From: Lichina pygmaea
Lineage: Eukaryota; Ascomycota; Lichinomycetes; Lichinales; Lichinaceae
DNA length: 64,000 bases
Direction of reading: 5' to 3'
NCBI GenBank assembly: GCA_963422465.1
Contig: OY730173.1
Location: 1,860,001 to 1,924,000 of the forward strand
Shown here: in pieces, positions 25,686 through 53,130 of the stretch
How the letters are laid out: each line of letters opens with the position of its first letter
How positions within the stretch are numbered: the first letter of the stretch is position 1
Translations under genes and position numbers: made by a program
The notes under the pieces: generated by a model
What the model was told of the DNA's origin: nothing
Databases searched by the model: none
Seen by the model: only the letters and a program-made list of their open reading frames with translations

Positions 25686-27192
25686 GGCCGTAATGAGGGT
25701 GTCCGTCGTTGCAGGGTGCGCGTGTCATGGTATTGGGGGTGATCTGGACGGCGAACATGGGGGCTCAGCAAACACAGAGGCCTTTTCATAAATCTCCGAT
25801 GAGCCGAACATCCCTTACATCGAGAGATGTCTGAAGGTAGGAAATAGCATCCATGTGCTTGATAGAAGGACGGGCGAGTTGACAATTGGTGGGGACATCA
25901 ACGCCGAACCTCTTAGCCAAACAAGATCAGACCAGACCAGACCAGATCAGACCAGGTCAAATCAAGTAATTAGTCTGTGAGTCTACGAGAGCAACAATCG
26001 TAACAGTCCCCCAGGCGCATATCATCAAGACGACTAAACACTTCTACCGTCGTACCGATGCCAGTAAGGTATCGTGGCACGCACGGGTGGCCAGCAAGTC
26101 AGCACACCACGTTCCCCCCAGACTCTCTGTCAGCTTACAGGCTGTGAAGCAATCAATCACCCTAGCCTGAAAGCAGAATGTGACAACTCTCCCACGCGTA
26201 CCCTTTTATTGTACTGTACATACGTACCTCCCATCAATACCAGAACCCCCAGCGTCGAGCCCTCTAGACTTCTACCCCTTTACACGACCCTCGAGCGAGC
26301 TTTCAGTGAGAACAACATGAGTCACAGGCCCTGGCATGCACACCAAAGCTCTGTGGTTTCTGATTAGTCCTGGACGAGACGACACCTCATTGACACGTGA
26401 TAAAAAGGGGGGAAAGATGGGGCGGGAGGGGACTGCTTCTCCTTTACATGTTTCGCGTGTTGGGGAGCTATGTTTCTGGGGTCTGGCTTGGGAACGGGGG
26501 GCATGCAAAGGAGACATGGGCTCAAAGGGGAGACGTGGACTTGATTCCCGCCGGGTCAACTCTATCTTTCTTTTCCGACAGGGAGAGAGAGTGGTGGGGG
26601 GGGGGGGGGGGGGGGGGGGGGGGTGAGCGCCTGTGGGCGTAAACAAAATTTGTACGCCTGGCGGGCGGGTAGGGAGGAGTATTTTGTTTTACCTAAGTTA
26701 CGTATTTGCTGTGTCGTGTTATCGAAAAAATTGTAGGAAGCTTAATCATTCATTCTGTTGATTTTATATTTCCATTTTATTTTCAGCGGCTGGTTTGCAG
26801 TGGGGCGTGCGAGCATGGTCTCCTCCTAGATCACTACAAATCGATAGACCTAACGTGCGTAAACCGAATCCAATCAGTCACTTTAGCAGGGCAGAAACGC
26901 CATCGTAGAAAAATGCCTGCGCAGGCGTATGCTATGAAGCTGCTTGCGCTGTCTTCCGGCACGATGGCTGAGGTTGACCGTTCTGCTAGCTCTAACCTGT
27001 TCGTCGACGCTACCTAGTTCTCGGTTGAGCCTTATGGTCTGGTCTCGCGGCAAGGCGTACTAATTTCAAGGAACACTCTCGGTAGACGACGTGCGTCACT
27101 ACCAGGGGAGACTACGAAAACCATGACCTGACAGAATGACTTCCCGCTAGCATTTCACCCCACGACGGAGAGCCAGGGCATCGCTGCTCTTC
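25686..27192. other. Convergent intergenic region PRP40 / RLI1
   Basis: About 1.5 kb without a recognisable gene. It holds an ACCAGATCAG/ACCAGACCAG repeat (about 25925-25965) and a 28-base G run at 26596-26623. Open frames across the G run are low-complexity artefacts. Confidence 0.55.
26596..26623 (+). repeat. Poly-G homopolymer (28 G)
   Basis: Uninterrupted run of 28 G residues, flanked by GTGGT and TGAGC. Such a tract can fold into G-quadruplexes and is prone to length change and sequencing error. Confidence 0.9.
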
Positions 27193-29509
27193 TCATTTGT
27201 CTTCCTCCAGGAAGAACTAAGCCATGTCAGCGAACAGAGTAGGTGGACGACAAGGGCAAACGTCAGACTGGAGGAGCGCTCACGTAGTTGCCACTCAATT
27301 TTTGCTCCTGGTCAAGCTGGCTCTTCGCCTTGTTGATGCGAGGCCGGAACGAGTTCGGGTCGCGGCGGAAGGTGACGTCCAGATTCTGCAGGAAGCGGTT
27401 ACATCCAGTCAGGAGACTTTCTGGTGTGTTGGCCCGCGCGTCCACGGAAGGCTGGCCATCGAACACGATGACGCGGTCAGCGAGGTAGGTTGCCATGATG
27501 AAGTCATGCTCCACGACGAAAGCAGTCTTCTTGGAGTGCATGATGAACCGCTTGATCACCCTTGCGGCGATGATACGTTGCTCCGAGTCGAGATAGCTTT
27601 TCGTACGCGATTTAGCAGCCGGCCAACGGTGGGGGAAGGATAACCGCCGGACTTACGCGCTGGGCTCGTCAATCAAGTAGATGTCAGCCTGCAGCCCAAG
27701 AGCCAGCACGATGGCCACCCGCTGCAGCTCGCCGCCGGACAGATGCTGTACTTCCTGGTCGATGAAGTCCTCGATCCTGAGCGGCTTGTACACGTCCGTC
27801 TGGAACTGAGGGCTCAAGAACGCAGCCTTGATCTTCTTGAAGAAAAGCTGCCGCACCGTGCCCTGAAACTTGGGCGTGATCTTCTGAGGCTTCATGCTGA
27901 TGTTCATCCGCGGCACCGATGCATTCCCGTCGGGCTTCTCAGCGCCGGCCAGGATCTTGCAGAAGGTCGTCTTGCCCGTGCCATTCTCTCCCATCATCAC
28001 GACGATCTCCGAGTCGGTGAACTGGCCGGATTCGATCGAAAGGTGGAAGCCCCCCAGGGTCTTCTCCATGGCAGGGTAGCTGAAGGCACGTGACTTGTCA
28101 ACCATGAAGTCTTCACCAGCTTCTGCTATCCTGAATTGCAACGATTCGTCGCGGAAGCGCAGGTTCTCCGTGGGAATGTTGCCGTCCAGGAAAATGTTGA
28201 TGCCCTCTCGGACGGATGCCGGAAGCGTGACGACACCATAGACTGCTGGCTTGCCATACAACAGACATATGAAGTCCGACAGATAGTCGAGCACGGACAG
28301 ATCATGCTCGACCACAACAACATAGTCATCGGGGCGAAGAAGTTCGCGGATCGTTCGAGCTGCGCTAAGGCGTTGCTTGACATCCAGATACGAAGAAGGC
28401 TCGTCGAACATGTATCTTGGTTGACCATGAGCGCCTTCGTCCACCAGAACAGGACTAGCATGAAGGGCAACCTACACGTCGGCCTGTTGTACGCAGACTA
28501 GCGCGATGGCGAATCGTTGGAGCTCGCCACCTGAGAGCAGGCCGATATCTCGGTCTAAGACATGCTGCAGTTCTGTATCCAGCTTCAGTCACCTCGTCTC
28601 GTCCGACAAAGATTCCCGCTCGATGAGAGCGACTCACCTAGCACTTCAACGATGTGATCGAAGTTGTTCTGCTGGGTACGAGCTCGTAGTAGGGTCTCTA
28701 CAGTTTTATCTGGCCCTTTCACTGCCTTGGGGATCTGATCGACATATTGTGGTTTTACCACCGCTTTCAGGTTGTCTTCCAGTACCTTAGTGAAGTAGTC
28801 TACAGCCAGTAAGCTCTTGGACCTAGATAGAGTGTCTCGAGAGGATTTACTTTGCAGCTCGGACCCTCGATAGTACTTCAAGATCTCTTCCCAGTCGGGA
28901 GGATTGTCGTAGCGACCTAAGTTGGGCTTCAACTTTCCGCTGAGAATCTTGAGCGCGGTGCTCTTCCCAATTCCGTTGGTGCCTACCAGTCCTAGTACCT
29001 GACCGGGTCGTGGCATAGGAAGGCGATGCAGCTTGAAGCTGTTGGCCGAATACCGATGGGTCACCTGGGACTCCAGGTTCGTGGGGAGGTTGATAATGCT
29101 GATAGCTCCAAAGGGGCATTTCTTCGGGCAGATACCGCATCCGATACAGAGCCGCTCCGAGATGAAGGCAATCTTGGCCTCCGGCGTGACCTCGATACAT
29201 AGCTTTCCAGTCCTCACCACGGGGCACGATTTCTTGCATTCTTGACGGCATTTCTGCACTCGACATGAGAAGGCGTCTTCTTTTCCCTATGCAGCATGTA
29301 TAACAGACCTTTGGTTTGCACTAGAGACGCAGAGCTCGCGTCAGCAACGTGCCAGCTTCAAGTGTGGGGTAGCGGGGTAAAGCTTGAACCGAGAAGAGCG
29401 TACCTTGTCACTATTGACAATTGCAATACTACGAAGCAATACTAGATTAGCATGTTGTGAAGTAGGATGTGCAAAGATTCTGCTCATACCGGGTAAGCTT
29501 GTCGCTCAT
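27193..29509 (-). CDS. RLI1: ABCE1/Rli1 ribosome recycling factor
   Basis: Essential iron-sulphur ABC ATPase that splits ribosomes after termination and acts in initiation. Eight exons in transcript order: 29490-29509, 29404-29428, 29309-29320, 28638-29253, 28476-28572, 27657-28415, 27284-27596 and 27193-27216; 621 aa. Seen: an N-terminal Fe-S domain starting [20 protein letters not shown] and continuing [10 protein letters not shown], with [16 protein letters not shown]; first Walker [24 protein letters not shown] and [12 protein letters not shown]; second Walker [24 protein letters not shown] and DEPSAYLDSEQR. The tail is NYFFLEEDK. The third exon is only 12 nt and encodes CKPK, including one cluster cysteine; without it the conserved Fe-S motif is broken. 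All junctions keep frame. Confidence 0.96.
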
Positions 29510-44561: not shown

Positions 44562-44579
44562 CCCCCCCCCCCCCCCCCC
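44562..44579. repeat. Poly-C run (18 C)
   Basis: Eighteen consecutive C residues just beyond the 3' end of the E2 gene (stop at 44623-44625). Confidence 0.9.
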
Positions 44580-52144: not shown

Positions 52145-53130
52145 TTTAGCGGATTGCACTGCCGGCTCAACAAGCGCCGAGACGGGTCATATACTCCTTG
52201 TTTGTGCGTGAGTAATGATGGCAGGGGGCCTCTGTGGTGACCGACAGGGTGGTGAGCCGTGGGGGGGGGGGGGGGGGGGGGGGAGGGGTTGGTGGGGGCG
52301 CCCTGGGCGTTTCCGACCGTGGCTGTCTTTGTCTCTCCTCTTTCTCCCGTGCGAGCTGACGCCAGCTTCACAACCGGTGTGCTGCGACTGCAGCGGTGGA
52401 TTCCACGGCCGTCGATGCTATCAGACACGCTAGGGACTGCTGTGCAGGAGAGTAACCACCAAGGGTCCCTAGAAGCCGCCGTCCGTCACGTGGTGTGGCT
52501 TGACCACGGCACACTTTTGTTTTTGACCGACGAGGATCTACCAGTACCTTACGTACGTACTCGTAGAGAAAAACCTTGCAAAGCTGCACCGGGATGTATA
52601 AGGAGCCACGAGACTCTGGATGACGTATTTCGTGGGTTCAAGATGTTCATAGCCTGGCGAGAATTGCTGGGCTGGTTCGTCTCGCACTACGATACCGGTA
52701 TACGGTAGCCGCGATAGACGCTCGTGGCGCCCCAAGCTGCCAGACCGTACTCGTACTCGTACGTACTCGTACAGTGTCACGACACAAGTCTGCGTACACC
52801 GCTACAACCCATCGACTGCTATCTTCTTAAGTAATGCGACAGAATCAGAGTTACGGCGACAGCAGCAGGTGATGATGTATTGATCCTCTGGACTAACCCG
52901 AGGTAGATAATGTATGCAGGTGTGCGCAGACTTGTGTCGTGCCACTGTACGTACGGTACGTACGTACGTATTACCGCATACCGGCATTCGTCATCCGAGA
53001 GGAACTTCCGTACGTGTGCAACGTACGAGGTACGTCACGATCGAGCGACTGTCCCTCGACCACACTCCTTTGGAGAAGCCTGTGCTTCGCTTTTCCGTTG
53101 TCCGCTCGCTCTCTGGATTCTCGTCTGGAT
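52145..53130. promoter_or_regulatory. Divergent intergenic region Zap1-like / small myristoylated protein
   Basis: About 1 kb, no gene recognised. It contains a 23-base G run (52261-52283) about 120 bp upstream of the Zap1-like start and several GTAC palindromes (52545-52560, 52740-52770, 52945-52975). Zap1-type genes are often autoregulated in fungi, but I see no clear zinc-responsive element. Confidence 0.45.
52261..52283 (+). repeat. Poly-G run (23 G)
   Basis: Twenty-three consecutive G residues, followed by AGGGG, in the upstream region of the Zap1-like gene. Confidence 0.9.

Follow-up and report, generated by a model that had tools for sequence, protein, structure and literature searches.

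A stretch of 12 nt in a Lichina pygmaea gene (29309..29320, minus strand; coordinates refer to the window, i.e. the whole 64,000-nt stretch of DNA that was analyzed) is bounded by AG and GT and would encode four residues of the iron-sulfur (Fe-S) region of RLI1. The question raised by this locus is whether so short a segment is an exon at all and, if so, whether it is included as a rule or is skipped in order to yield an Fe-S-defective isoform, as was proposed in an earlier note on this DNA.

The coding region of RLI1 (ABCE1) extends from 29509 to 27193 on the minus strand and was modeled as nine coding exons of 20, 25, 12, 403, 162, 97, 759, 313, and 24 nt, in that order, encoding 604 amino acids. 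All introns were GT-AG (8/8), with lengths of 51-83 nt. Exon 1 (29490..29509, minus strand, 20 nt), placed by alignment with yeast Rli1, encodes MSDKLT and the CG of an arginine codon, and is followed by intron 1 (29429..29489, minus strand, 61 nt, GTATGA...TAG) with a branch-like CTAAT. Exon 2 (29404..29428, minus strand, 25 nt) is likewise short and internal; its length is not divisible by 3, and it ends in GACAAG. Intron 2 (29321..29403, minus strand, 83 nt) has the donor GTACGC, a branch-like CTGAC (A at 29341), and the acceptor TAG. Exon 3 (29309..29320, minus strand) is the 12-nt microexon TGCAAACCAAAG, encoding CKPK with Cys16 of the Fe-S domain, and directly after it stands GTCTGT, the donor of intron 3 (29254..29308, minus strand, 55 nt), which contains a weak branch-like CTCAT (A at 29266) and the acceptor CAG. 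Exon 4 (28851..29253, minus strand, 403 nt) starts at 29253 with AAATGCCGTCAAG and carries the remaining Fe-S cysteines and the first Walker A motif. Read along the minus strand, the order around the 12-nt exon is ...GTCTCTAG, TGCAAACCAAAG, GTCTGTTA..., and exons 1-3 together comprise just 57 nt of coding sequence. Since the boundaries of exons 2, 3, and 4 are all phase 0, skipping of exon 3 would be in frame with loss of CKPK. The gene, strand, coordinates, boundaries, and frame of the GT-AG flanked exon proposed in the earlier note were all correct, as was its statement that skipping would be frame-neutral and delete one conserved cluster cysteine. An internal microexon is defined here as a coding exon of at most 30 nt placed between an acceptor AG and a donor GT, a description that the predicted exon 3 fits. 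Among the best candidates scored, a 222-aa query from RLI1 exons 4-5 had one match in its own genome (32.5 Mb, 8 contigs). About 570 bases past the RLI1 stop lies a run of 28 G on the plus strand (26596-26623); similar homopolymer runs in the window are 18 C at 44562-44579 and 23 G at 52261-52283.

The spliced 604-aa product was matched to yeast Rli1 (3j16_B; E=0, 1062 bits), with residues 1-201 free of gaps, and to mammalian ABCE1 (5lzv), with residues 1-182 free of gaps; both matches covered residues 1-601. Pfam models detected Fer4_RLI (51.2 bits), Fer4 (22.8 bits, cut-off 21.1), and two stretches of ABC_tran (132.2 bits). The cluster cysteines of the product align with those of yeast Rli1, which are reported to number eight (PMC4523923). 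Judged by its Fe-S domains with cluster cysteines as well as by its two ABC domains and full-length similarity, the predicted protein belongs to ABCE1/Rli1. The cysteine encoded by exon 3, residue 16, is the first of the conserved cluster cysteines and pairs with C16 of yeast Rli1 in the alignment, and the CKPK residues are also present in the aligned yeast and mammal proteins. Cluster cysteines matter for yeast viability according to a review (PMC8153317), and the conservation of Cys16 suggests that it may itself be essential. Removal of CKPK lowered the Fer4_RLI score to 26.7 bits, still above the cut-off of 23, and the family model alone therefore makes no demand for exon 3.

Uninterrupted archaeal genes provided length markers for the spacing of CKPK. 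Prokaryote contigs yielded 207 relatives, 80 of which were kept (53 archaeal, 27 bacterial, and 0 fungal). The cysteine was read in the 46 archaeal loci whose match started with the opening residue of exon 4, setting aside the 27 bacterial loci and 7 archaeal loci matched from residue 2 or 6. Every locus read (46/46) contained Cys-x-x-x-[KR]C, i.e. a cysteine placed four residues ahead of the [KR]C at the start of exon 4. By homology exon 3 would thus be needed, and the claim that it supplies CKPK and a conserved cluster cysteine was borne out. Two scans of viral contigs confirmed no relative, although seven stretches fitted a pattern in one of them.

For comparison of splice signals, 24 reference introns were taken from the beta-tubulin, actin, calmodulin, and RLI1 gene models, a small set in which RLI1 is itself one of the four genes. 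The reference introns span 46-107 nt with a median of about 62 nt (n=24), a range that includes flanking introns 2 and 3 (83 and 55 nt). The intron 2 donor, GTACGC, is good in its context (7.86 bits), and the intron has a branch-like CTGAC. The weak donor after exon 3 is the one remaining oddity. GTCTGT scores 3.85 bits, fourth lowest of 26, and has C at position +3, where the reference introns have A (15), G (9), or C (0/24). A CTRAY branch-like site is present in 18/24 reference introns and absent from intron 3, whose nearest branch-like match is CTCAT, 12 nt before its end; RLI1 intron 6 likewise has CTCAT as its sole yTnAy match. The CAG acceptor of intron 3 is good (5.48 bits). Because three introns of the modeled conserved genes, RLI1 intron 4 among them, have donor scores below that of GTCTGT, this donor is expected to work. 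Donor hexamers upstream of CTRAY...YAG units in 264 kb including the window gave no clear signal (GTCTGT was seen 17 times, with 17.0 expected), and the 201-nt local RNA fold was no better than shuffles (z = +1.0; 170/200 shuffles fold at least as well). A splice-site model self-trained on the 264 kb was dropped, since most of the GT/AG pairs on which it converged, whether unsupervised or seeded, lay in coding sequence.

Gene content and intron style point to a fungus, probably a filamentous ascomycete, and short 5' exons are a feature of ascomycete tubulin, actin, and calmodulin genes. Beta-tubulin, actin, and calmodulin were modeled from loci of the same genome that had been identified with the Pfam models Tubulin, Actin, and EF-hand. 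Compared with solved homologues, the models were gap-free for calmodulin residues 1-148, for all 375 residues of actin, and for beta-tubulin up to the acidic tail. Internal exons of at most 31 nt were found in beta-tubulin (24 and 26 nt), actin (31 and 31 nt), calmodulin (16 nt), and RLI1 (25 and 12 nt). All modeled genes (4/4) therefore have short internal exons close to the 5' end, although this count includes RLI1, and the three comparison genes were picked because short 5' exons were expected in them, rather than at random, so that no genome-wide frequency is implied. In calmodulin the short exon contributes part of a calcium-binding loop, namely DKDGD together with one base, the first, of the Gly codon that follows. 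As in RLI1, short introns are crowded at the 5' end of these genes; their short exons are longer than the 12 nt of RLI1, and the donor after each of the five has A or G at +3, unlike the C of RLI1. The earlier note had regarded exon 3 as exceptional, a view that is not supported in light of its own 25-nt neighbor and of the internal exons of 16-31 nt in the three chosen genes.

First coding exons in this genome can also be short. That of calmodulin is ATG alone, 3 nt (gene on the minus strand of its locus, contig C2 near 831 kb), and that of actin is 7 nt (gene on the minus strand of its locus, contig C3 near 4.316 Mb); some 200 bases past the actin stop lies a long (CT)n tract. By eye, a tubulin-family gene on contig C7 near 837 kb, which we take to be gamma-tubulin, has an apparently very short first coding exon.

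Taken together, the 12 nt very probably represent an internal coding microexon of fungal RLI1 (ABCE1) that is included as a rule, i.e. an ordinary microexon that is probably constitutive. Two short phase-0 introns, 12 nt apart, would sit inside the conserved N-terminal Fe-S motif, and each may be recognized across itself by intron definition, in which case the size of the exon between them would be of little importance. Exon 3 would then bridge SDK to KCRQECKK, restoring the ancestral SDK-CKPK-KC with its conserved first cysteine. For fungi, intron definition has been put forward as the splicing model, and a site missed in this way of splicing results in a retained intron (PMC3925392).

Two alternatives would deny the 12 nt the standing of a separately spliced exon. 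They could be non-exonic, with CKPK a chance string and the cysteine contributed by another exon, and an AG-Cys-any three codons-GT pattern does arise easily if little is asked: when the 150-nt interval between SDK and KCRQ was shuffled 20,000 times with dinucleotides preserved, it occurred in 497 shuffles. The full AG-TGY-AAR-CCN-AAR-GT (AG-CKPK-GT) at the exact place, in contrast, was obtained in 0/20,000, and a search of both strands of the 264 kb for this splice pattern returned one match, exon 3 itself. The interval offers six stop-free in-frame AG-exon-GT choices, three of which are flanked on either side by 45 nt or more of intron, but only TGCAAACCAAAG gives four residues starting with Cys; a different exon supplying the cysteine, the outcome named in the earlier note as contrary to its proposal, was thus not among them. 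Since CKPK is furthermore shared by yeast and mammal, and the archaeal loci read have Cys at the same spacing, the shuffles and homology bring a chance origin close to exclusion, and it was rejected. Alternatively, introns 2 and 3 could be removed not singly but as a nested or twin unit resembling a stwintron, in which one intron interrupts a splice motif of another and which is known from filamentous fungi (PMC6616335). This arrangement is hardly credible here and was likewise rejected, as the 12 coding nt between the introns must, by homology, stay, and both introns come with a complete set of GT, branch-like site, and AG.

The remaining alternatives accept a microexon and concern its regulation. 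Were exon 3 an alternative cassette skipped in some conditions, the product would be an in-frame Rli1 lacking Cys16 and hence one Fe-S ligand short. The frame-preserving length, the weak donor, a skipped protein that exceeds the Fer4_RLI cut-off, and the report of a 20-nt microexon acting as a glucose switch in Trichoderma virens Xlr2 (PMC11121469) are all consistent with a cassette. Yeast Rli1 with one cluster cysteine changed to serine (residue 25 or 61) is reported to allow growth without but not with oxygen, while a double change, one per cluster, did not support growth without oxygen either (PMC4523923). Use of a skipped isoform at low oxygen is therefore conceivable, and the yeast mutants are the sole opening found toward a functional one, by an analogy that extends to single side chains, not to four residues, a loss exceeding the point mutations in severity. 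Skipping would, however, require an intron of 150 nt, beyond the 46-107 nt spanned by the 24 reference introns, and the cysteine is retained in each of the 46 archaeal loci read. Skipped exons are reported as about 3% of fungal alternative splicing events compared with 61% for intron retention (PMC3925392), and events found in both data sets for Verticillium dahliae comprised 70.79% intron retention, 2.23% cassette exon, and 0.42% exon skipping (PMC5294800). A cassette thus appears very unlikely, and the skipped Fe-S-defective isoform of the earlier note was not supported. The predicted consequences of misprocessing differ among the elements: exon 3 skipped alone keeps the frame and loses Cys16, exon 2 skipped leads to a stop at codon 24, intron 2 kept to a stop at codon 36, and intron 3 kept to a frame shift that ends translation at codon 176 instead of the normal codon 605. 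Given the share of retention in fungi and intron definition, the expected error would be intron 3 kept rather than exon 3 skipped, suggesting that leaky retention is the likelier of the two. Partial retention of intron 3 through its weak donor and branch site, giving less Rli1 and possibly tuned by conditions, is compatible with a constitutive microexon; it is favored by the rank of the donor, its +3 C, the CTCAT site, the truncation at codon 176, and the prevalence of retention among fungal events (PMC3925392), but it is rather improbable considering the even lower donor scores of three conserved-gene introns, the same sole CTCAT in RLI1 intron 6, the good acceptor, and a local fold no better than shuffles. 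It is similarly quite doubtful, about as much as a cassette, that RLI1 acts as a splicing sensor in which low iron or oxygen causes the microexon to be omitted or intron 3 to be kept via the weak donor. If true, the resulting ligand-short or lower-dose Rli1 would couple ribosome recycling to Fe-S supply.

The main consequence of the probable microexon concerns annotation. A gene caller omitting the 12 nt would predict an in-frame Rli1 without a conserved cluster cysteine, an error that is hard to notice because no frameshift arises. Exon 3 is not evidence of a regulatory isoform. Together with the 16-nt exon of calmodulin, it provides a second metal-binding motif built from tiny exons in one genome.

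Among titles and the starts of abstracts, no report of an RLI1/ABCE1 microexon was found, which is weak evidence of absence given that subscription literature was thinly covered. Microexons appear in PMC3990503 and PMC8022950 merely as a mapper setting, and the human Ca/Zn exons described in PMC10853796 have no bearing on RLI1. Fungal exons of 1, 16, 18, 20, and 21 nt have nevertheless been published (PMC10878826, PMC11121469, PMC12940212), and the rarity assumed in the earlier note is not supported. Histone H4E of Pezizomycotina, with Symbiotaphrina buchneri as the typical model, is reported to have intron-flanked exons of 16, 18, 21, and 29-32 nt, and this structure is described as strikingly conserved; the A. 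nidulans version, wrong in databases and departing from the typical model at two introns, was confirmed by RT-PCR (PMC10878826). H4E and RLI1 have short internal exons in common, although H4E is a different gene, the 12 nt of RLI1 are shorter, and RLI1 exon 3 is predicted from genomic sequence, whereas the A. nidulans exons are RT-PCR-confirmed. The 20-nt microexon of T. virens Xlr2 encodes part of a cysteine-rich Zn2Cys6 motif and was missing from an earlier gene model, and its authors described functional microexons as previously undescribed in filamentous fungi (PMC11121469). In contrast to RLI1 exon 3, which bears no sign of regulation, the Xlr2 exon is reportedly glucose-dependent and is not a multiple of 3, but both are fungal microexons encoding part of a cysteine-rich metal-binding motif. 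In Fusarium CYP621A, a 1-nt exon is needed to rebuild a conserved PKG motif, as was argued from homology together with reads and an intronless length marker (PMC12940212). CYP621A is a P450 gene and its exon is RNA-supported, while that of RLI1 is predicted from genomic sequence and homology; in both genes, a tiny exon restores a conserved motif.
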